Shown in pieces: positions 25,020-36,794 of a stretch of DNA of 64,000 nt. The notes under the pieces were generated by a model. The model made no database searches, was not told where the DNA came from, and worked only from the letters and a program-made list of their open reading frames with translations. The first letter of the stretch is position 1; every line of letters starts with the position of its first letter. The stretch covers positions 1 to 64,000 of the forward strand of contig WJMF01000231.1 in the NCBI GenBank assembly GCA_014728085.1, read 5' to 3'. This DNA is from Candidatus Zhuqueibacterota bacterium. GTDB lineage: Bacteria > Zhuqueibacterota > Zhuqueibacteria > Residuimicrobiales > Oceaniaggregativiventaceae. A program made the position numbers and the translations under genes.

Positions 25020-26663
25020 GTGAAAAAAGTTGATACAAGCCGGGCGGAGCAACAAACGAGTATAAACACCGGGTATTTTATTTGTGACAAAAGGGGTCGA
25101 TTCCTTTCTGTGAATGAATTGCTCGTATCGCTGACCAATTATTCTGAAGAAGAGATGTTATCGCTGTCAATTTCAGATATCATGCCGGAGGAGGAAGAAC
25201 CGGAATTTTTCTCGCTGTTGTATCAGGAAGAAAATATCGGTAAAACTCTGACGTTTTCATTTCATCTTATCAACAAGCTGGGGGAAAGGCGGCCTGTCGA
25301 GTTTAAAATTCGACTGATAACTGATGATAACGAGAGGGTTATCGGTTTCAGAGGGCATGTGGTCCTGTTGCCGGCCAAAGCCGGAAAAGAAAGGCCGGAT
25401 GAGTCCGGAAATCGAACCCGTTTGGTGGAGGATTTGGTCGATATTATTTATATGGGCTATTCGGAACCATTGGCCAATGTGTTGAAACGCGTCGCAGAAA
25501 GTATCGGACAGAACTTTGGGTTCAAGCGCAGCACCATCGCTTTGCTGGACAAGCGCAAAAAGACATTTGTCAAGCATGCCATGGTAGGATATAGCGATGA
25601 CTCATCGGCAACCGAACGCCGTTCCATCGAAGCCCCTCAGGATGTTATTTCCCGTATTTTTGCAGATCATAAAAAAATCAAGCTTATTCGTCATTCCCAG
25701 CCACAGGAAAGCAATAGCGGACATGTCAGCGGACTACCTCTGGCGCAGGAACATCAGATCGAAAGATGGCATGAGCGAGACCTTCTTTTGCTCAACTTGA
25801 CCAATCATTCCGGTAAAACATTTGGATACGTTTCGCTTGAATCGCCTCTTGAAGAGAGAAAACCGGATCAAACCACATTTGACAATCTGGAAATGTTTTC
25901 CTCTCTTCTATCCATGGCAATCGAAAATTACTATCGTTTTTCCAGCCTGGAAAAACGCAACCGCCGCTTAAAGCAGGTTCTGGTCAACAGCAATATATTC
26001 AAACTCTATCTCTCCCTGTCCGAACTGCTTAAAGAAGTGGTATGGTCTGTTAAATTTACCGCTGATTTTAATGTGGTTTCCCTTATTTTGATCAGTAAAA
26101 AGTCCGGTATGCTGGAAACCAAAGCGGTTGCATGTGACGAAAAGATAAAGGTGTTACAACTCGGAGAGCTGTGTTTTGACCTCAAGGCATTTAGCGATAT
26201 GCTTCGGGATGAGTATCGTCAGGGTAAATCGTACCTGGTTACTGAAGAAGAATCTGTATTGCAGCATCTTAAGCAAATATATTACGGGGCACGGTTAAAT
26301 CATCCCCAAAACAGCAGTTGGCCTATATGGGCGTTGTTGCTGGTCCCTATAAAGTCACGGGAAGGCAAAATTATTGGATTCCTGGCCGCAGATGACCCCA
26401 GTGATCGTCAAATGCCCAATCGTGATACGATGAAGATCATGGAAATTATGGCCAATCAAATTGCCATCGCCATCGATAATCGCGTCATGTATGTGCAATC
26501 CAGGGAACAGATGAAGGAATCCGAAAACAACCGATCCCCCGAACCGGACACAGAATCCTATAGAACTGGTGCTGAATCATCCGGAATCAATTATGACAGG
26601 GAAAGAGAGGAACATTATTCCAGCGGTGGCTTGAGAAAGCTTGTTGAGAAATTTTTACGGTAA
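25020..26663 (+). CDS. PAS-GAF-GAF sensor protein without an output domain
   Basis: The 547-residue protein starts at GTG 25020. A PAS domain occupies about 16-118 ('GYFICDKRGRFLSVNELLVSL', 'FSFHLINKLGERRPVEFKIR'). The first GAF domain spans about 140-305 and ends in a helix with 'LSMAIENYYRFSSLEKR'. A second GAF-like domain spans about 325-495 ('WALLLVPIKSREGKIIGFL', 'QIAIAIDNRVMY'). The last 50 residues are charged and low in complexity. No kinase, cyclase or phosphatase domain follows. It must act through protein contact, perhaps on a phosphatase or kinase encoded further along, whose GAF domains look similar. A terminator closes the gene. Confidence 0.82.
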   Translation: MKKVDTSRAEQQTSINTGYFICDKRGRFLSVNELLVSLTNYSEEEMLSLSISDIMPEEEEPEFFSLLYQEENIGKTLTFSFHLINKLGERRPVEFKIRLITDDNERVIGFRGHVVLLPAKAGKERPDESGNRTRLVEDLVDIIYMGYSEPLANVLKRVAESIGQNFGFKRSTIALLDKRKKTFVKHAMVGYSDDSSATERRSIEAPQDVISRIFADHKKIKLIRHSQPQESNSGHVSGLPLAQEHQIERWHERDLLLLNLTNHSGKTFGYVSLESPLEERKPDQTTFDNLEMFSSLLSMAIENYYRFSSLEKRNRRLKQVLVNSNIFKLYLSLSELLKEVVWSVKFTADFNVVSLILISKKSGMLETKAVACDEKIKVLQLGELCFDLKAFSDMLRDEYRQGKSYLVTEEESVLQHLKQIYYGARLNHPQNSSWPIWALLLVPIKSREGKIIGFLAADDPSDRQMPNRDTMKIMEIMANQIAIAIDNRVMYVQSREQMKESENNRSPEPDTESYRTGAESSGINYDREREEHYSSGGLRKLVEKFLR

Positions 26664-26740
26664 GCAGAACGGAACATTTCCCTGCCTGATTCGTTTTAAA
26701 TAGTGTTTTGATAACAGCCCGGATTTTTATAAATTATAGA

Positions 26741-26771
26741 AACCGTGACCCCTTTAGTCACGGTTTTTTAC
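26741..26771 (+). terminator. Rho-independent terminator after the PAS/GAF sensor gene
   Basis: AACCGTGAC (26741-26749) pairs with GTCACGGTT (26757-26765) around a seven-base loop, and a run of T residues follows. It is a compact, perfect intrinsic terminator ending just before the DUF362 gene, so the following operon must have its own promoter or depend on read-through. Confidence 0.9.
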
Positions 26772-26784
26772 TTTTAGGAAAAGG

Positions 26785-27789
26785 ATGAGACGGCGAGCAT
26801 TTTTTAAATCTCTGATTGGTGCAACAAGCTCTTTTGGTATGGTGCGACATGGATATGGCGGTAAAAAAGAGGCGTTGATTCCGACCTCTGTGGCTTCAGG
26901 TGCGCCTTTTTCCAGGGTCGTGCTGGCAACTGAAAGAGGATTGAGCCACGGCATCCGGCCCGTTGCGGAAGAACGCATCGGGAATCTGTTGGCGCGATCG
27001 ATAGAAACGCTTTTCGAAGAAAACGCCGATACCGTCTGGCGGCGGTTATTTCATCCTGAAGATGTTGTCGGTCTTAAGGTCAACTGTTTGGCCGGTAAAG
27101 GGCTTTCCACCCGCCTCGAGCTCGTGAATGCGGTATGTGAGGCGTTGCTGCAAGCCGGGATTAAGAAACATCGTATTATCATCTGGGACCGGGCCGATCG
27201 CGATCTGGAACGCGCTGGTTATTCTATTGAAAGACGGAAGAACAGAGTGCAATGTTTCGGCACCAACAAAGCCGGTTATACGTCCAGGATCTATGAGCAT
27301 GGCTATGTGGGCAGTCAGCTATCGCGCATTGTTACCGATTACTGCAGTGCGATCATCAATTTGCCTGTTCTCAAAGATCACGGCATTGTGGGTTTGAGCG
27401 TCGGATTAAAAAATTTTTTTGGCGCCATCAATAATCCCAACAAATATCACGATAATGCAGGTGATCCTTATGTGGCTGATGTTAATATGTTAACCCCGAT
27501 TCGAAGCAAAACCCGCCTGACCATTTGTGACGCCATTACACCGCAGTATGAAGGTGGGCCTCCATATATGCCACAATGGACCTGGCCGATGAACAGTCTG
27601 CTGGTATCAACCGATATGGTTGCTATGGATCAGGTTGGTTGGGACATCGTTGAGGAGAAAAGACGCGAAAACAAATTTTCCTCTCTGGCCGGGGCCGGGC
27701 GGGAACCGGTTTATATCAACACAGCTGCAGACGCCGAGCACGAGTTGGGGACCAATAATTCGGCAAAAATTAACGTGTTGAAGGTATGA
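26785..27789 (+). CDS. DUF362 domain protein with Tat-like signal
   Basis: The 334-residue protein begins MRRRAFFKSLIGATSS, a twin-arginine type export signal. The body matches DUF362: 'DVVGLKVNCLAGKGLSTR', 'IIIWDRADRDLERAGY', 'AIINLPVLKDHGIVGLSVGLKN' and 'DICDAI'-type segments near the end. Many DUF362 proteins carry a C-terminal 4Fe-4S ferredoxin part; no CxxCxxC cluster motif is present here. Its last codon overlaps the start of the radical SAM gene by four bases (ATGA), so the two are made together. The family has no settled activity; it often neighbours Memo/radical SAM genes. Confidence 0.85.
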   Translation: MRRRAFFKSLIGATSSFGMVRHGYGGKKEALIPTSVASGAPFSRVVLATERGLSHGIRPVAEERIGNLLARSIETLFEENADTVWRRLFHPEDVVGLKVNCLAGKGLSTRLELVNAVCEALLQAGIKKHRIIIWDRADRDLERAGYSIERRKNRVQCFGTNKAGYTSRIYEHGYVGSQLSRIVTDYCSAIINLPVLKDHGIVGLSVGLKNFFGAINNPNKYHDNAGDPYVADVNMLTPIRSKTRLTICDAITPQYEGGPPYMPQWTWPMNSLLVSTDMVAMDQVGWDIVEEKRRENKFSSLAGAGREPVYINTAADAEHELGTNNSAKINVLKV

Positions 27790-28886
27790 TGGATAGACGA
27801 ACATTTATCAAAATATCTTCCTGCAGCGCGGCAGGATATTGTTTGTTGAGGGACGGCAAGGTGTTGGCCGGGGATGACGGTGTTGCACCGGCCCGTTATT
27901 ACGAAAAGTTGCCTTACCGTAAGATAAAATGCACATTGTGTCCGCGAGAATGTGTCATCGATGATCTGGAGAGAGGATATTGCGGCGTTCGTGAAAATCG
28001 CGGTGGCACTTATTATACATTGGTTCATGGCAACCCGTGTTCTGCACATATTGATCCGATCGAAAAGAAACCTCTGTTTCATTTTTTACCCGGAACCCTG
28101 GCATTTTCCATCGCCACGGTCGGTTGCAATGTCTTTTGTAAATTTTGCCAAAACTGGCAAATCTCACAGGCCCGGCCGGAACAGGTCAAATCTATGAAAA
28201 TGTCCCCGGAAAAGGTTGCAAAAGTTGCTGTTGAACGAAACTGTCCATCGGTTGCCTATACCTACACAGAGCCGGTTGTTTTTACTGAATATATGTATGA
28301 TACTGCCAGGGCTTGCCGGGATCGCAATATAAAAAGCGTTATGATCTCAAACGGCTATATTCAAAAAGAGCCTATGAAGGACCTGTGCACGGTTTTAAAT
28401 GCCGTCAAAATAGATTTAAAGGCGTTTACTCGGCGATTTTATAAAGAACTGGTTGCAGGTGAGCTAAAACCCGTCCTCGATACACTGATCCTTTTACGTC
28501 AGCAAAATATGTGGACAGAGATTGTCTATCTGATTATTCCCGGTCAAAATGACGATCCCGGGGAGCTTGAAAAATTGTCAAAATGGATCGTCGAAGAACT
28601 GGGTCCTGATACACCGCTTCATTTCAGCCGTTTTTATCCGCAATACCGTTTGAAAAATTTACCGGCAACACCGATATCAACCCTTGAAACCGCCCGTAAA
28701 ATTGCACTTGATAACGGCCTCAAGTATGTCTATATCGGGAATGTACCCGGTCATGCTGCTGAAAACACATATTGTCCTTCCTGTCAACGTTTGCTCGTCA
28801 AACGCACGGGCTACCGAATTATTGAGAATGCGATTCAAAACAACCGCTGTTCATACTGCAGCGCAACAATTGCCGGTGTTTGGTAG
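27786..28886 (+). CDS. amrS: AmmeMemoRadiSam system radical SAM enzyme with Tat-like signal
   Basis: The 366-residue protein begins MDRRTFIKISSCSAAGY, an RR-type signal. Then come the family's N-terminal cysteine set (CTLCPREC, residues 49-56, and GYCG at 66), the radical SAM cluster motif C114-x3-C118-x2-C121 (CNVFCKFC), 'YTYTEPVVF', and a C-terminal zinc-ribbon-like pair of CPSC and CSYC ending ATIAGVW. These features identify the AmmeMemoRadiSam radical SAM protein, related to pyruvate formate-lyase activases. The family is normally described as cytoplasmic, so an export signal is notable; Tat could carry the folded, cluster-loaded enzyme. It is coupled to the DUF362 gene and 22 bases upstream of the Memo gene. 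Confidence 0.93.
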   Translation: MMDRRTFIKISSCSAAGYCLLRDGKVLAGDDGVAPARYYEKLPYRKIKCTLCPRECVIDDLERGYCGVRENRGGTYYTLVHGNPCSAHIDPIEKKPLFHFLPGTLAFSIATVGCNVFCKFCQNWQISQARPEQVKSMKMSPEKVAKVAVERNCPSVAYTYTEPVVFTEYMYDTARACRDRNIKSVMISNGYIQKEPMKDLCTVLNAVKIDLKAFTRRFYKELVAGELKPVLDTLILLRQQNMWTEIVYLIIPGQNDDPGELEKLSKWIVEELGPDTPLHFSRFYPQYRLKNLPATPISTLETARKIALDNGLKYVYIGNVPGHAAENTYCPSCQRLLVKRTGYRIIENAIQNNRCSYCSATIAGVW

Positions 28887-28908
28887 AGAGAATATCAAGG
28901 AGGTATAG

Positions 28909-30381
28909 ATGAATAGATTGTCTCACTGGTGTCTGGTTTTTGTTCTGACAACTTTTTGTTCGCCTCTGTTTTCACAACAAGGTTATCGTCATGCCGCTGT
29001 TGCCGGTTCTTTTTACCCGGGAAGCTCGGATGAACTGTCGCAAATGGTAGAGCATCTGATCTCCGAAGCTCCGGAACGGGAAATCGATGGTGAAATCATT
29101 GGCATTGTTGCCCCGCATGCCGGTTATGTGTTTTCTGGCTCAATCGCTGCAACCGCTTACAGACAGCTATTGAATCGGGTTTATGATGTGGTTGTGATCA
29201 TTGCTCCCAGCCATCGTGATCCGTTTTCGGGCGCCACGATCTATCCCGGGGCCGGATATATCACACCACTGGGAAAAATGGATATGGCCAAAGAACTGTG
29301 CGGAGAGTTGGTATCGCGCTGTGACAATATATCGTTTTCCAACCAAGGCCACGGGCAGGAACATGCACTTGAAGTGCAGTTGCCATTTTTGCAAACCGTT
29401 TTTTCACCACCACCTGAAATGATAGCGATGGTTGTCGGAAGTTGTGACTGGAATATGTGTCAGACAATTGGATCTCATCTGGGTCAGAGTTTACAGGGTA
29501 AGAAAGCGCTGATTATTGCCAGTACCGATCTTTACCATGGATATTCCTATGAGGAATGTGAAAGCATCGACAAGAAAACAGTTGAAGCGATGCTTAAGGC
29601 AAACCCCCGGAAATTGTATCAGGGGTTCAAGGGGCGAATCCTGCAGGCCTGCGGGGGCTCTGCGGTTGTCATCCTGCGGCTTGCCGCCGAAGCGCTTGGT
29701 GCGACCGATGCGGCTCTTCTTGCGCATACCAATTCCAACGATGTTACCGGAGAACGAGGTGGCTATGTGGTGGGATATAGCGCTTTGGCCTATTATGCGG
29801 GCGATGCTGAAATCCCTAAAGCCAGGATAGAGTATCCCCCTTTGGAGGTTCATGAACAAAATTTTTTATTGTCAAGTGCCAGGGAAGCAATCGAACAGTA
29901 TTTAAACAACAAAACGATTGCCCAATTTGAGCCAATATCAGATCGGTTGCGACAGAAAAGGGGTGTTTTTGTAACGATTAACAAAAATGGCAGGTTGCGC
30001 GGTTGCATTGGCGCGCATCAGGCCTTTGAGCCGGTTTACAGGCTGGTTCCCGATCGGGCGGTGGCCGCAGCTTTTCAGGATCCGAGATTTCCACCCCTGA
30101 CGCGAGAAGAGCTGGATGATATATCCATAAAGGTATCCGTATATACCACCAATGTCTATGCCATCAAAAGCATAGAGGAATTCGAAATGGGCAAGCATGG
30201 TATCATCATGATCAAAGATGGCCGCGGGGCAACGTTTTTACCCGAGGTTCCGCTGGAAGCGGGGTGGAAGCGTAAAGAGGAAGAGATGCGGCAATTATGC
30301 TACAAAGCGGGATTGAATTTGGATGCCTGGAAAAACGGTGCACAATTTTATGTTTATGAAACACAGGTTTTTGGCGAATAG
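28909..30381 (+). CDS. amrB: Memo-AMMECR1 fusion protein (AmmeMemoRadiSam proteins B and A) with Sec signal
   Basis: The 490-residue protein follows a perfect AAGGAGGT site (28897-28904). Residues 1-24 form a Sec signal (hydrophobic, ending PLFSQQ). The Memo domain (about 26-298) has the metal-site residues expected from human MEMO1: H70 in 'VAPHAGYVFSG', H102 in 'IAPSHRDPF' and C248 in 'QACGGSAVV', plus 'EHALEVQLPF'. An AMMECR1 domain follows (about 312-490) with the invariant LRGCIG at 363-368. Fusions of B and A are known; placing both outside the cytoplasm is the unusual feature. A redox or metal-dependent periplasmic function is suggested, not shown. Confidence 0.92.
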   Translation: MNRLSHWCLVFVLTTFCSPLFSQQGYRHAAVAGSFYPGSSDELSQMVEHLISEAPEREIDGEIIGIVAPHAGYVFSGSIAATAYRQLLNRVYDVVVIIAPSHRDPFSGATIYPGAGYITPLGKMDMAKELCGELVSRCDNISFSNQGHGQEHALEVQLPFLQTVFSPPPEMIAMVVGSCDWNMCQTIGSHLGQSLQGKKALIIASTDLYHGYSYEECESIDKKTVEAMLKANPRKLYQGFKGRILQACGGSAVVILRLAAEALGATDAALLAHTNSNDVTGERGGYVVGYSALAYYAGDAEIPKARIEYPPLEVHEQNFLLSSAREAIEQYLNNKTIAQFEPISDRLRQKRGVFVTINKNGRLRGCIGAHQAFEPVYRLVPDRAVAAAFQDPRFPPLTREELDDISIKVSVYTTNVYAIKSIEEFEMGKHGIIMIKDGRGATFLPEVPLEAGWKRKEEEMRQLCYKAGLNLDAWKNGAQFYVYETQVFGE

Positions 30382-30401
30382 ATATTTAAAGAGGTAAATC
30401 A

Positions 30402-30959
30402 ATGCAAAATCGAGAATCCATGTTTACATCAGATCAACAGAAAACATTGCTCAATATCGCCAGGGAGACCATTCGGGCGGTGAGCAAAAATCAGAATATG
30501 CCTCTTTTCGACATAAAGGATGAAAAATTAAATCAATCCATGGGGGCATTTGTTACCTTGACGATAGATGGGGAATTGTGCGGTTGTATCGGCAGTATAG
30601 AAGGGCGGGGTCCGTTGTGGAAGACAATAGAGGAGATGGCTGTTTCGGCGGCTTTTCGCGATCCCAGGTTTCCTGCTGTTTCTGCTCAACAAACGGAAAA
30701 GCTAAGGATAGAAATATCCGTGTTGTCACCGCTGGAAAAAATAGATGACATCGATGAAATTCAGGTGGGTAAGCATGGACTCTATATCAAGTCTGCCTAT
30801 TCAAGCGGCCTTTTACTTCCCCAGGTTGCCTCTGAACGCAATTGGGACCGATTGACCTTCGTGCAGCACACCTGCAGGAAAGCAGGTCTGCCGGCTGATG
30901 CCTGGCAGAATGATGAAACCGATATTTTCATTTTTTCCGCCGATATTTTTTCAGAATAA
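30402..30959 (+). CDS. amrA: Stand-alone AMMECR1 protein (AmmeMemoRadiSam protein A)
   Basis: This 185-residue protein is a complete AMMECR1 domain: 'GAFVTLTIDGELCGCIGSIEG' in place of the usual LRGCIG, 'SAAFRDPRFPAV', 'LRIEISVLSPLEKIDDIDEI', and 'LLLPQVASERNWDRLTFVQHTC'. It has no signal peptide, in contrast to the AMMECR1 half of the gene 20 bases upstream, so the cell would have one exported and one internal AMMECR1 copy. The Arg of the LRGCIG motif is replaced by Cys here. It is the last gene of the module. Confidence 0.93.
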   Translation: MQNRESMFTSDQQKTLLNIARETIRAVSKNQNMPLFDIKDEKLNQSMGAFVTLTIDGELCGCIGSIEGRGPLWKTIEEMAVSAAFRDPRFPAVSAQQTEKLRIEISVLSPLEKIDDIDEIQVGKHGLYIKSAYSSGLLLPQVASERNWDRLTFVQHTCRKAGLPADAWQNDETDIFIFSADIFSE

Positions 30960-31039: not shown

Positions 31040-32305
31040 ATGAAAACAGCATTATTTTTTTTCTCAATTTTATTAATCGTCATAGGTTTCCATTGTTCCG
31101 ACAGAGAACGCAATAATCCTCTGGATCCGGATAATACGGATAGCGGTGGAAGACCGACTGGTTTTTACGCTTATGCGGAAAAAAATATCGTAAAGATACA
31201 TTGGCAGCCCATAAATGCGATCGATTTAAGCGGCTATACACTCTACAGGCGCAAGGCGGGAAACCAGTTTCGCGAGCTCGTCTCTCTGGCGCCTGACGTC
31301 CATCGGTATGAAGATGTCGTAGATCAGTACGGGATTACCTATGACTATAAAATGACGGTACTGGCAGGCGCGTACGAGTCTCGGCCCACAAAAGTCGCAA
31401 AGGTGACTCCGGGTCCAACTTTTACCTGGCTGGCTGATCCCGGAGACGGAGCGGTAAAAAAATTTACGCATGATCTGGGATATGCTTTGTCGATGTTTTC
31501 CGGAGCCTATTCCCCTTTTCGTATTGCTCTCAATTCAGCGCGGCAAAATCATTGGATATTTTCGAGATACAGTGGAACCATTTACAAGATAGACTCGTAT
31601 GGTAATGCTATAGCACAAGTAAACGTCGGTATGCCGACTTTGTGGGATATGGATGTCGACACCCTTCGCAATGAGTTATGGGTGGCACGGTATGGTCAGG
31701 GTATGGTAACGCTTATTTCTCATAACGCACAGGTCTTGCACTCAATTTATGATATCGGACATCCCCTGGCAGTGGCAGTGGATTCACGGCTGCAACTCGG
31801 TTGGGTTATCGATGATTCCAGCAAGAAGGTATTTCGCCTTCAAAATCACTATGGGCGTTTGCGAATTGAAGATAGTTATGATTTTACAAACCCAAAAGCG
31901 ATCGCTCTCGATGAGAATGACCAGAGGATGTGGGTAGCTGATAGTAGCCGGATCGTAAGAATGTCGTACGAGGGCAGAGTCGAGCGGGTAATCGATTCGC
32001 CCTATTATGCCAGGTTGATTGCGCTTAATGTTCAGAATGGTGATATTTGGTATATAGATCGCCGCGCTTCCGGTGAGTTTGCTTCCCTGGTGAAATGCGA
32101 TAGCGATGGTAATATGCTTTTCGAAAGGGAGGTCTTTTACGATCCTGTTGCCATTGTTGTCAACGAATTCAATGGCGATTGCCTGGTTGCCGACCTCAGT
32201 TATGAACATCTGGGGGTTTGGCGCTGTTCGAATAGCGGTGTTATAGAACACGTTATCGAAAACGTTCGCCCTTTTGATCTGGATATCGAATATACGGGTC
32301 ACTAA
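31040..32305 (+). CDS. Lipoprotein with Fn3-like domain and NHL/SMP-30-like beta-propeller
   Basis: The 421-residue protein has a hydrophobic N-terminus before cysteine 19 (IVIGFHC, a loose lipobox), followed by a 'RERNNPLDPDN' stretch of a kind seen at the start of many FCB lipoproteins. An Fn3-like domain (about 40-122) precedes a propeller of repeated 'WVA...SRIVRMSYEG' and 'PLAVAVDSRLQLGWVIDD' blades. No ribosome binding site is visible. The stop lies three bases before the first SpoIIE phosphatase gene, so the propeller protein may report an outer or periplasmic signal to that phosphatase's periplasmic domain. This is inference from position. Confidence 0.75.
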   Translation: MKTALFFFSILLIVIGFHCSDRERNNPLDPDNTDSGGRPTGFYAYAEKNIVKIHWQPINAIDLSGYTLYRRKAGNQFRELVSLAPDVHRYEDVVDQYGITYDYKMTVLAGAYESRPTKVAKVTPGPTFTWLADPGDGAVKKFTHDLGYALSMFSGAYSPFRIALNSARQNHWIFSRYSGTIYKIDSYGNAIAQVNVGMPTLWDMDVDTLRNELWVARYGQGMVTLISHNAQVLHSIYDIGHPLAVAVDSRLQLGWVIDDSSKKVFRLQNHYGRLRIEDSYDFTNPKAIALDENDQRMWVADSSRIVRMSYEGRVERVIDSPYYARLIALNVQNGDIWYIDRRASGEFASLVKCDSDGNMLFEREVFYDPVAIVVNEFNGDCLVADLSYEHLGVWRCSNSGVIEHVIENVRPFDLDIEYTGH

Positions 32306-32308
32306 TAT

Positions 32309-34720
32309 ATGAAAAACTTTGCCAAATCTTCCGAATTGTTAATTTTAATCCTGGGAATATCCGGTTTTATTGCTTTTCTGTTTTTTTACCCGACCATTTT
32401 TGTCACCAGCGCCATCGATATAAATCATGAAAAGTCAGCACTAATAACCATTGCTAAAGAGTCACTTCAGCAGCTGGGGTATACGCCCTCGGAATATAAT
32501 GCGCGAGTCGAATTTGAGGCGCACAATAAACTGCTTGAATATCTAAATCGAAAATATTCGATAGAGGAGCAAAAAGAACATTTTGATGCTCTGCAACCCT
32601 ATTACTGGCGTGTAACCTTTACACCCGTAAATGAACCGGCTGACAGCAGTGAAATGAAAAGCGATCTGTCCTGGATCAATCAAATCGATATACTTTTTGA
32701 TCAAAATGGCGATGAAATCGGATTCTGGACCAAGGCTGACGATGATAGCACGATTCACAATATTTCTCCCGAGCGGGCCCGCCATTTGGCGGATTCTACC
32801 TTGATAGCCCGGATGCAGGCGGATACCGCAAAATTTACCTTTTCGCGTTTTAAACAGATTCCGCGTGACTATAGAATCGACTATACGGTTGAATATCTGC
32901 GATCAGAACCGATACTGGATATTCCGGTTAAACTGAATATTGATGTGATTGGCGATCGCGTTGGTAACTATGAATATGAATTTGATGTTCCGGATTCCCA
33001 GGCTTCTGAATTATCACGCATCATCGCCATTGTTCCCTTTTTCCTTGCGATCGTTGCTGTCGGTATCATGTTCATCGTCATGAGCATTAAAAAACTGCGG
33101 GCCGATGGACTCGGGCTGCGCTATGTTTCTCCTATAGCGATTTCGATGGGACTGGCCTCGGCACTTTGGGTCTTGCTGGAGGCGTCTTCCAGCGGGGTTG
33201 ATATGATCAATACCATTATAGGCATGTTTTTCCTTGGTATTATCAGCAGTATTGCTGTTTTTATCGGAGTTGCGTGTTCAGACTCGATAACGAGAGAGAT
33301 CTGGGATACCAAGTTGATCACTCTGGATGCGCTGAGGAAAGGCTATATTCAGCATCGTCTCTTTTCTTTGTCAGTCCTGCGGGGGTTTGCCTATGCCGGA
33401 ATATTACTTGGTTTGATTGTCTTTTTTTCAAAAATTGCATCGTTATTTCATTGGAGTGATATTACCGATGTTGCAACTGACCTGAGCCTGGTCAACACCT
33501 GGAGTTCTTTTTTGACCGTCCTGGTCGGGGGATATACATCGACCATATGGTTACAATATATCCTCATCCTGTTTCTGGTTTCGTTTTTGGCCAAATATAT
33601 AGGCCATCGAATGTGGATTATTTGTCTGATCGGCTTGCTGTGGGGTGTCCTGAACAGCACCGAATCCTATTATCCGACACAGCACTATTATTTGAATTTT
33701 TTGCAATATTTTGTCTTTGGGGCCCTGTTTGCCGTCATTCTTTTAAAGTATGATTTTTTTACGCTATTTGTCGCCTTTTTTTCCTTTTACCTGCTCAAAC
33801 GCGTGGTGATGCTTTATCATTTTGACCACCAGACTTGTCTCCTCAATGCGGTGTTCTTGTCGTTGATTCCCCTTGCTTTGCTGGTTCTGTCAATAGTGTT
33901 TTATAAAAACAAGATCGATTACAGCGAACTCAAAGTATTTACACCGGTCTATGTAAACAAAATTGTAGAGCGGGAACGGCTGCAACGCGAGCTGGAGATC
34001 GCACGGCGGGTACAGCTGAGCTTTTTGCCACGTGAAAAGCCCGATTTCGCGGGACTTGATAGTGCGAGCATATGTATCCCGGCTCTTGATGTCGGTGGTG
34101 ATTATTTCGATTTTGTTAAACTCGACTCTCAAAGGCTTGGTGTTGCTATTGGTGATGTATCCGGTAAGGGCATATCAGCGGCTTTTTATATGACTCTGAC
34201 GAAAGGGTTTCTGCGTTCTATTGCCCGAACCCTTGTTTCCCCAAAACAGGTGTTGATGGAGATCAATAAGCTTTTTTATGAAAATGTCGAACGAAGTCAT
34301 TTTATCAGTATGATCTATGGAATCATTGATCTTGAAAAGCGTCAATTTACATTTGCACGAGCCGGTCATAATCCGGTAATCACACATCAGACGAAAAGCG
34401 GTAAAACAGAACGGTTATGCCCGAATGGGATTGCACTGGGTCTGGAAAAGGGTGAGATGTTTGATCAAATTATTCAGGAACAGCGGATACCGATTCGGAC
34501 CGGCGATTTACTTGCCTTTTACACCGATGGATTCACAGAAGCGATGAATTCCAGCAATGAAGAATTTGGCGAAGCCCGGCTGGAGATGTTGTTGTCCTAT
34601 TCCGATGATGAGGATGCGGAAACGCTCTTGCAAACCATCCACAATCGGGTGAAGGCGTTTACCGGCAATACAATCCAACATGACGATATGACGATGATTA
34701 TTCTGAAAATTATGTCCTGA
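32309..34720 (+). CDS. SpoIIE/RsbU-type PP2C phosphatase with periplasmic and CPBP-like membrane sensor
   Basis: The 803-residue protein has a helix at about 10-32, a periplasmic part (about 35-230) with a PepSY-like look, and about eight hydrophobic segments (about 232-545). A PP2C domain follows, preceded by a coiled-coil linker. The catalytic acids are all present: GGDYFD (596-601), GDVSGKG (615-621), YTDG (738-741) and HDDMT (791-795). The membrane region aligns by eye with that of the 53373-55856 protein ('LDAL', 'SVLRGFAYA', 'FGALFAVILLKYDFFTLF') and resembles a CPBP/Abi protease core whose motif residues are lost. It should dephosphorylate a STAS antagonist in response to a membrane or periplasmic signal. 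Confidence 0.85.
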   Translation: MKNFAKSSELLILILGISGFIAFLFFYPTIFVTSAIDINHEKSALITIAKESLQQLGYTPSEYNARVEFEAHNKLLEYLNRKYSIEEQKEHFDALQPYYWRVTFTPVNEPADSSEMKSDLSWINQIDILFDQNGDEIGFWTKADDDSTIHNISPERARHLADSTLIARMQADTAKFTFSRFKQIPRDYRIDYTVEYLRSEPILDIPVKLNIDVIGDRVGNYEYEFDVPDSQASELSRIIAIVPFFLAIVAVGIMFIVMSIKKLRADGLGLRYVSPIAISMGLASALWVLLEASSSGVDMINTIIGMFFLGIISSIAVFIGVACSDSITREIWDTKLITLDALRKGYIQHRLFSLSVLRGFAYAGILLGLIVFFSKIASLFHWSDITDVATDLSLVNTWSSFLTVLVGGYTSTIWLQYILILFLVSFLAKYIGHRMWIICLIGLLWGVLNSTESYYPTQHYYLNFLQYFVFGALFAVILLKYDFFTLFVAFFSFYLLKRVVMLYHFDHQTCLLNAVFLSLIPLALLVLSIVFYKNKIDYSELKVFTPVYVNKIVERERLQRELEIARRVQLSFLPREKPDFAGLDSASICIPALDVGGDYFDFVKLDSQRLGVAIGDVSGKGISAAFYMTLTKGFLRSIARTLVSPKQVLMEINKLFYENVERSHFISMIYGIIDLEKRQFTFARAGHNPVITHQTKSGKTERLCPNGIALGLEKGEMFDQIIQEQRIPIRTGDLLAFYTDGFTEAMNSSNEEFGEARLEMLLSYSDDEDAETLLQTIHNRVKAFTGNTIQHDDMTMIILKIMS

Positions 34721-34733
34721 TTTGAGTGATTTT

Positions 34734-36794
34734 ATGAAACGAAATATCAGCACATGGTCTCTGCTATTGCCTCTGGCTCTGTTCGTAATTGCCGTTTTGT
34801 TAAAATCACCGGTTTCCTCGCAACCGGATCAAATTTATATACTGAAAGAGATACTGATATTCGGCGCCATCCTGTTATCGATTCCATTGATATTTCATCA
34901 AAAATGGGCGTCCGACCGTAATGTGCTGCGGGGATTGCGTCAGCTGTTTTTTTTCATCTTTCTTACCTATTTTCTCTTATTATTTTTTAGACAATCCTGG
35001 CCTCGATCCGCGCTTACCTTCAATGAGCCGGATTACCTCGCCCTGGTACTTTGGTCTGTCTATTCTTTTGTCTTTGCGATGATTTGTATAGGCATTCTCC
35101 GCAATTTGATTTTTATCAAGCGAAAACGTTCAACTTTGCGCAATTTTAGTGTCTTGTTGTTTTTTCTCGTTTTTTACGCCCTGTTGGGCGTTTTAAACAA
35201 CCAGCTCGATATTCCCAAAGAGGTGGTCGATTCCATTCATTATTTCATTCTTTTTATTCTTTTAAATTTGATGGTCATCAACTCGTTGAGGATTTCCTGG
35301 ATTAATTATCTCAACAAAAAACAAAAAATTACTTTATTCTGGAGTGGGCTGTTTCTGATACCTTTTTTAATCCATTTAACCGTTCTATATTATCAATCCA
35401 GCCCGATTATCCACTTTAGCGTTGTATTGGATCGATTTGTCAACCAGAGCATTTTGTTGCTGACTGTATATACCAGTTTCGCTTTAATCGGACTGCTTGC
35501 CCATCTACCCACTGCCCAACTTTTTGACCGAAAAATTCGACAAATCGAATCCATGCATAATCTGAGCCGGGCTATCAGCACAGAGTTTGATTTGAACAAA
35601 TTGGTTGTTTTAATCGTTAAATTGGTTTCAGATGTAACGGAATCAGATTTTGCCTGGCTCGAGTTGTCTGATGAGAAAAACAGGAAACTTGTATTGGTAT
35701 CTTCACGTAATTTAAAGGAGAAAGAAAAGCGAAATCGCGAGGTTTTTTATCATCAACAGTTGATTGAATTTTTGTCAGATCAGAATGAACCTTATCTGGT
35801 CAATCAGGTCAGCAAAGACGAACACGCAAAATTTCTTCTGGCCTGGAAAAAGGATATTGGTTCTGTTCTTATTGTTCCGTTGTACAGCGTGGAAAAAACA
35901 GTAGGTTTTCTCTATGCAGCAAAGCGGCAGGAATTTGCCTTTGAACAGGATGATATCGATATGATGAGAGCTTTTAGTGAACAGGTCATTGTAGCGCTTG
36001 AAAATGCGAGACTGATAAAAGAGTCCATTGAAAAGGAACGTTTACAGCAGGAATTGCTTGTTGCTCGTGACGCCCAGATGAAACTCTTGCCAAAGTCGAT
36101 GCCGAAATTGCAGAATATACAAATCGATGCAATCTGTCGTACTGCCAATGAGGTGGGAGGCGATTATTATGATTTTTTGTCGCTGGACGACCATCAGCTC
36201 GGCGTCGTAATCGGCGATGTCAGTGGTAAAGGACCCTCTGCTGCCTTTTATATGGCTGAAGTAAAAGGAATCATCAACGCTTTGGCTAAAACACAGACCT
36301 CTCCGGCAAAGATATTGTGTCAGGTTAACCGAACGCTTTATCCCAATATTGAGCGGAATCAGTTCATCAGCATGATCTATGGTGTTCTTGATGTTCGGGA
36401 AAGAACTTTTACCTTTGCCAGAGCCGGACATTGTCCGGTATATCTTGCATCGCCGCTATCAAATAAAGTGGACATTCTGGAGCCGCGTGGCATCAGTTTA
36501 GGGTTGAATTCAGGACCGATTTTTGATAAAACAATAGAAGAACGAAAGATATCTCTTAACGCCGGAGAAACATTGTTGCTTTATACGGATGGCGCCATTG
36601 AAGCGAGAAATAAAAACGGCAAAGAGTTCGGAGAAGAAAGATTAATAGAGGGTTTTTTACAATATAAAGAGCATTCTGTTTCGGAAATTAAATTAAATTT
36701 GTTAAATTATATTTATAAATTCGTTGAGGATGAAAAGTCCTTTGATGATTTAACGTTTATCTTAATTCAAGCAGCACAAAAGTTTACGGTATAG
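34734..36794 (+). CDS. SpoIIE/RsbU-type PP2C phosphatase with 8-TM and GAF sensor
   Basis: Started at ATG 34734 (686 residues), the protein begins with about eight transmembrane helices (to about residue 265). A GAF domain follows (about 280-425, ending 'QVIVALENARLIKES'), then a coiled-coil linker and a PP2C domain with intact acids in GGDYYDF, GDVSGKG, YTDGAIEA and FDDLT. An upstream TTG at 34722 is possible but lacks a site. It lies in a line of phosphatase genes and ends nine bases before the STAS gene, the likely substrate. The multi-helix N-terminus could sense membrane state or a ligand; no 7TMR signature was certain. Confidence 0.88.
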   Translation: MKRNISTWSLLLPLALFVIAVLLKSPVSSQPDQIYILKEILIFGAILLSIPLIFHQKWASDRNVLRGLRQLFFFIFLTYFLLLFFRQSWPRSALTFNEPDYLALVLWSVYSFVFAMICIGILRNLIFIKRKRSTLRNFSVLLFFLVFYALLGVLNNQLDIPKEVVDSIHYFILFILLNLMVINSLRISWINYLNKKQKITLFWSGLFLIPFLIHLTVLYYQSSPIIHFSVVLDRFVNQSILLLTVYTSFALIGLLAHLPTAQLFDRKIRQIESMHNLSRAISTEFDLNKLVVLIVKLVSDVTESDFAWLELSDEKNRKLVLVSSRNLKEKEKRNREVFYHQQLIEFLSDQNEPYLVNQVSKDEHAKFLLAWKKDIGSVLIVPLYSVEKTVGFLYAAKRQEFAFEQDDIDMMRAFSEQVIVALENARLIKESIEKERLQQELLVARDAQMKLLPKSMPKLQNIQIDAICRTANEVGGDYYDFLSLDDHQLGVVIGDVSGKGPSAAFYMAEVKGIINALAKTQTSPAKILCQVNRTLYPNIERNQFISMIYGVLDVRERTFTFARAGHCPVYLASPLSNKVDILEPRGISLGLNSGPIFDKTIEERKISLNAGETLLLYTDGAIEARNKNGKEFGEERLIEGFLQYKEHSVSEIKLNLLNYIYKFVEDEKSFDDLTFILIQAAQKFTV

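Follow-up and report, generated by a model that had tools for sequence, protein, structure and literature searches.

A candidate extracytoplasmic AmmeMemoRadiSam module with conserved export leaders in Candidatus Zhuqueibacterota

We propose that a row of four genes in a Candidatus Zhuqueibacterota genome, found in a 64,000-nucleotide stretch of DNA (hereafter, the window), probably encodes an AmmeMemoRadiSam system of an extracytoplasmic kind, with the same basic chemistry as a cytoplasmic paralogue set. Export of three components, predicted from their N-terminal leaders, is very likely; radical catalysis outside the cytoplasm is plausible because the active site is fully conserved, and we give it roughly even chances. 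AmmeMemoRadiSam is usually described as cytoplasmic, location not being part of the family models, and the general view of radical SAM enzymes is that they depend on cytoplasmic SAM and on a low-potential donor. We know of no radical chemistry in the cell envelope. If the proposal is correct, a conserved exported radical SAM enzyme, in cells with paralogous inside and outside sets, would bring such chemistry to the envelope, and the exported module would open a fresh approach to what Memo and AMMECR1 do, an unsolved question for two proteins conserved to humans.

Results and discussion

Gene row and leaders of the module

The four genes lie head to tail on the forward strand and begin 3' of the intrinsic terminator (26738..26768, a 12-pair stem and T run) of an upstream PAS/GAF gene. 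They encode a DUF362 protein of possibly LarA-like fold with the Tat leader MRRRAFFKSLIGATSSFGMV (26785..27789), an amrS-type radical SAM enzyme with the Tat leader MMDRRTFIKISSCSAAGYCLL (27786..28886, leader 27786..27869), a Memo-AMMECR1 fusion with the Sec leader MNRLSHWCLVFVLTTFCSPLFSQ (28909..30381), and a free-standing AMMECR1 (30402..30959) that is leaderless, as are its inspected relatives, and presumably cytoplasmic. In a profile scan of the window proteins, DUF362 (PF04015, 76 bits) and all three AmmeMemoRadiSam families scored above curated cut-offs: the radical SAM enzyme with 395 bits (TIGR04337, cut-off 220), the Memo domain of the fusion with 231.7 bits (TIGR04336, cut-off 26), and the fused and free AMMECR1 with 163 and 183 bits (TIGR04335, cut-off 99). 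The radical SAM ATG overlaps the DUF362 stop codon and AGGAGG stands directly 5' of the Memo-AMMECR1 ATG, which makes translation of the leaders very probable.

An earlier note on this DNA had claimed Tat-like N-termini for the DUF362 protein (RRRAFFK) and the radical SAM enzyme (DRRTFIK), a Sec signal for the fusion, and thus export signals on most components, all of which our analysis bears out for three of the four proteins. Tat leaders were called with a rule written for this analysis (RR-x-hydrophobic followed by an uncharged stretch of at least 11 residues), which nearly every orthologue of DUF362 and of this radical SAM clade passed, as against 13 of 628 other genes (2.1%). The uncharged stretch is 12 residues long in both window leaders, so that they miss by one residue a stricter TATFIND-style rule demanding 13 after the motif; 43 radical SAM ORFs of the phylum pass that stricter rule. 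In alignments, the twin arginines are invariant in 19 radical SAM orthologues, and R3, R4 and F6 in 22 DUF362 orthologues. The radical SAM leader, predicted by AlphaFold as a helix at residues 3-16 with low confidence over residues 12-32, has a possible cleavage site after VLA; no clear cleavage site was found in the window DUF362 leader. With a conserved RR, a hydrophobic stretch and one TatC (243.7 bits) in the genome, both proteins are predicted Tat substrates. The radical SAM enzyme resembles known Tat-exported Fe-S proteins in pairing a twin-arginine leader with a folded cofactor protein, but the literature searched turned up no exported member of the radical SAM class, which sets it apart from them.

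Export leaders and leaderless paralogues across the phylum

We sampled 82 genomes of the same phylum and read the N-termini at 120 loci. A radical SAM protein above the cut-off occurred in 70 of the 82 genomes and was of the Tat type in 47 of those 70; 42 of the 47 also keep a leaderless copy. The Tat rule passed 48 radical SAM ORFs, including one false call (L159), and missed one true leader by a single residue (L097); false calls (L135, L146, L159 and L187) were discarded on visual inspection, and L107 and L119 were cut at contig ends. The earlier note had suggested asking whether the signals co-occur in homologous gene groups, and they do, by counts that take no account of shared descent. 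Of 25 DUF362 proteins adjoining a Tat-type radical SAM gene, 24 carried a Tat leader and the other (L060) belongs to a fused ORF at the end of a contig; none of the three that adjoined a cytoplasmic one had such a leader. Similarly, a simple leader rule was passed by 39 of 41 Memo-AMMECR1 fusions but by no canonical Memo out of 18. The two fusions it missed are L084, in which a leader can be seen, and L263, which was cut in parsing; three single Memos that passed are fusions truncated at contig ends. The kind of signal differs among relatives (Tat, Tat with a lipobox-like cysteine, Sec, or lipoprotein), with a cysteine at the lipobox position in many fusions and some DUF362 proteins (for example, L059, L064 and L071), while export signals are kept. 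Few switches of the exported label are required on a FastTree phylogeny with 191 rows, in which the window enzyme falls within 32 exported rows with a local support of 99, deeper forks being weak.

The host genome (5.19 Mb, 98% complete) encodes elsewhere a second, leaderless radical SAM enzyme with the N-terminus MPKEALFYKKLDD and a leaderless single-domain Memo, indicating that inside and outside sets coexist. Only two AMMECR1 domains were found in this genome, both in the module, so the leaderless AMMECR1 may serve the inside set. A third Memo-domain protein (L019; G000:C145:39967-40854) is longer and divergent (122 bits); many genomes of the phylum have comparably long matches with low scores, including ones that lack the exported module. 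The window proteins thus share with AmmeMemoRadiSam (amrA, amrB and amrS) its three families in one gene row, and the catalytic cysteines of its cytoplasmic radical SAM copies. They differ from it in the predicted leaders on the radical SAM enzyme and Memo, which depart from the usual cytoplasmic location, in the Memo-AMMECR1 fusion, in the added Tat-type DUF362, and in the separate leaderless radical SAM enzyme and Memo of the same genome.

Conserved active site of the radical SAM enzyme

The CxxxCxxC motif for the SAM-binding [4Fe-4S] cluster (C114, C118 and C121; 28125..28148) is present in every one of the 47 exported and 45 cytoplasmic copies compared (100%), as are the remaining structural cysteines, making 11 in all (C49, C52, C56, C66; C330, C333, C355, C358). 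Counting 46 other positions, 57 are conserved in both clades, whereas 12 separate exported from cytoplasmic copies (for example, K208 versus N, V247-Y248 versus T-T, and W267 versus F). Among solved folds, the predicted model (pLDDT 82) comes closest to the pyruvate formate-lyase (PFL) activating enzyme (3cb8 and 3c8f; phmmer 9e-9), its nearest match being 3cb8, which contains AdoMet and a peptide (TM 0.82, normalised to target length); together, motif and modelled fold mark the protein as a probable radical SAM enzyme. We rejected its assignment as a glycyl radical activase, its score of 63.5 bits being far under the PFLA cut-off of 231.75. It also has N- and C-terminal cysteine modules that the PFL activating enzyme lacks, and no glycyl radical enzyme was noticed beside it.

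Two kinds of unusual radical SAM protein appeared in the survey. L154 and L156 are leaderless-type proteins within ORFs of ~935 residues, probably fused to another domain. L157 and L159-L168 form a divergent group (~190-230 bits to the window copy) in which the region before the first conserved cysteine differs (GELYxxxxDxxxxCYxCG).

DUF362 and Memo-AMMECR1

In a PDB fold comparison, the 12 highest-ranking hits to the DUF362 model are all LarA-type, at low scores (E 4e-4, probability 1.00, TM 0.45). DUF362 and the LarA nickel-pincer family (DUF2088) both belong to Pfam clan CL0471 (PMC11770544), but the window protein is only 10-16% identical to these enzymes, with TM below 0.5. In the fusion, the presumed metal ligands H70, H102 and C248 match H49, H81 and C244 of MEMO1 (PMC11081632), the two histidines within the alignment and the cysteine by position beyond it. 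These ligands and the AMMECR1 motif RGCIG (residues 364-368) are at least 97% conserved in 44 aligned Memo proteins, comprising 43 exported-type or window sequences and one canonical copy (L169). Homology to human MEMO1 (7KQ8) extends over residues 27-211; the human protein is cytosolic (PMC11081632), whereas the window Memo is fused to AMMECR1 and bears a leader.

A haem motif and a leaderless lineage in other phyla

Alignment searches outside the phylum covered genomes near two MAGs, one titled Deltaproteobacteria (G082) and the other Bacteroidetes (G088). They recovered further Tat-type radical SAM proteins, many of those in the G088 group with KR instead of RR. In seven relatives from two other phyla, which form one clade with a support of 100, the Tat leader is joined by a variable linker to a CxxCH-type motif just before the radical SAM domain. 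The motif is CxxCH in six of them (L186/L246, L189, L211/L256, L212/L257, L293 and L295) and YxxCH in L294; R8, R9, C71, C74 and H75 are invariant in four aligned members (56-74% identity to the first). Attachment of haem c to CxxCH takes place only outside the cytoplasm, so the motif is independent evidence of an outside location in these relatives and makes that location directly testable. The window enzyme itself has no CxxCH. Two long ORFs with 5 and 7 CxxCH motifs lie within a few genes of L246.

One lineage of the G082 phylum has a leaderless radical SAM protein nested among exported ones, beside a lipoprotein Memo-AMMECR1; the enzyme and Memo therefore need not obviously share a compartment. 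At 16 loci of this lineage (L191, L193-L203, L205, L207, L208 and L326), a small ORF with a Tat leader (weak in L326) and a C-terminal xAG lies directly downstream of the radical SAM gene and before Memo-AMMECR1; a few other loci of the group (L187, L188, L190 and L192) have no such ORF or one with another ending. The small protein may be a hitchhiker carrier that exports the radical SAM enzyme, or a peptide substrate. A related radical SAM enzyme is described from peptide-processing systems (PMC7159879), which keeps the peptide-substrate reading open. That these peptides are a detached N-terminal arm of the enzyme was unsupported (2 of 17 at p ~0.02 with an ungapped arm profile). No AG-ending peptide of this kind was found near the window module.

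A 16-TM spermidine-synthase-like protein

A spermidine-synthase-like protein of ~720-800 residues and 16 TM segments, with two sets of ~8 hydrophobic segments around a PRK03612-like domain that scores under its cut-off, had a full-length match in 41 of the 47 genomes that carry the exported radical SAM enzyme versus 7 of the 35 that lack it (Fisher p = 7e-10, a test that ignores shared descent). The gene adjoins the exported module in many loci (L090, L241, L247, L252, L253 and L255-L260) and lies on another contig in the host genome (G000:C49:9572-11740). That the protein moves or uses SAM or decarboxylated SAM is only a guess.

Proposed mechanism and alternatives

In the reading we favour, that of an extracytoplasmic variant, the radical SAM enzyme, an Fe-S protein, and the DUF362 protein with its possible LarA-type fold would fold in the cytoplasm and exit folded via Tat. 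Memo-AMMECR1 would exit unfolded via Sec, as a soluble protein here and as a lipoprotein in many relatives, and the exported parts would come together on the periplasmic side of the inner membrane. There the set would perform the basic chemistry of its cytoplasmic paralogues on an envelope or extracellular substrate, with electrons possibly arriving through c-type haem and SAM handled by the spermidine-synthase-like protein, as relatives alone suggest. The proposal takes its basis from features read directly in the sequences, namely conserved leaders, intact catalytic sites, paralogy and gene order; from these we infer actual translocation, complex formation, outside radical catalysis, the substrate, and the SAM and electron sources. 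The complete scheme, in which a working outside radical SAM enzyme is reduced in some lineages by its own haem c, receives SAM or a derivative via the 16-TM protein, and acts with exported Memo-AMMECR1 on an envelope substrate, is tentative, and we would not bet on all of its parts together. The earlier note saw no obvious source of SAM or electrons in the periplasm; this stands for the window, and we know of no periplasmic SAM or low-potential donor in this organism, but the relatives do provide leads in the built-in haem c and the spermidine-synthase-like protein.

The lack of a known periplasmic SAM or strong reductant would also suit an enzyme that has given up SAM radical chemistry and become an outside Fe-S redox or metal-handling protein working with Memo. 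Fe-S proteins usually leave the cytoplasm through Tat, and the haem c fusions are also compatible with electron transfer. In a protein with a purely redox role, loss of SAM-site residues would be expected; the 11 cysteines and 46 other positions held in common with the cytoplasmic paralogue count against this reading, which we consider unlikely. The earlier note offered as an alternative that the RR segments are membrane anchors placing the enzyme at the inner face; in this reading DUF362 and the radical SAM enzyme would be held at the cytoplasmic face by uncleaved leaders, with Memo-AMMECR1 alone exported. Some leaders do have weak or absent cleavage sites, and a leaderless radical SAM protein does sit beside a lipoprotein Memo in another phylum. 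An anchor, however, does not need invariant arginines; the h-regions are short and weakly hydrophobic, as in Tat leaders; several DUF362 orthologues have a lipobox-position cysteine after the leader; and relatives carry CxxCH behind the same type of leader. We therefore disfavour anchoring as quite improbable. Least credible of all, and in our view barely worth entertaining, is an artefact of wrong start codons or chance arginine pairs: the window leaders are short and ORF starts were picked by rule, but the starts are backed by AGGAGG and the stop-start overlap, and leaders are conserved in most families of the phylum against the 2.1% background. Export of the module as a set, in contrast, is strongly supported by this phylum-wide conservation, the contrast with leaderless paralogues, the lipobox-position cysteines of some DUF362 proteins, the lipoprotein leaders of many fusions, and the relatives that combine a Tat leader, CxxCH and a radical SAM domain.

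We found no description of an exported AmmeMemoRadiSam system or an extracytoplasmic radical SAM enzyme, nor a function or substrate for any AmmeMemoRadiSam family member, in the literature searched, whose coverage did not extend to Burroughs et al. 2019, cited for Memo-AMMECR1 systems in PMC7159879.

Other neighbouring genes

PAS/GAF and phosphatase genes are repeated neighbours in the subset of loci to which the window belongs. Genes related to the upstream PAS/GAF gene (25020..26663, forward strand) precede the module in 17 loci, the window included. Downstream on the same strand, a lipoprotein-like gene (31040..32305) has relatives close to the module in 4 loci, and two SpoIIE/PP2C-like phosphatase genes (32309..36794), named by reading their sequences, in 6 and 7 loci. 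At other loci (L084, L093, L111-L113, L115 and L120), an ApbE-like lipoprotein gene lies four to five genes downstream of the exported module, in some cases with NfeD-, SPFH-, STAS- and polyprenyl-synthetase-like genes, several of them likewise named by reading sequences.
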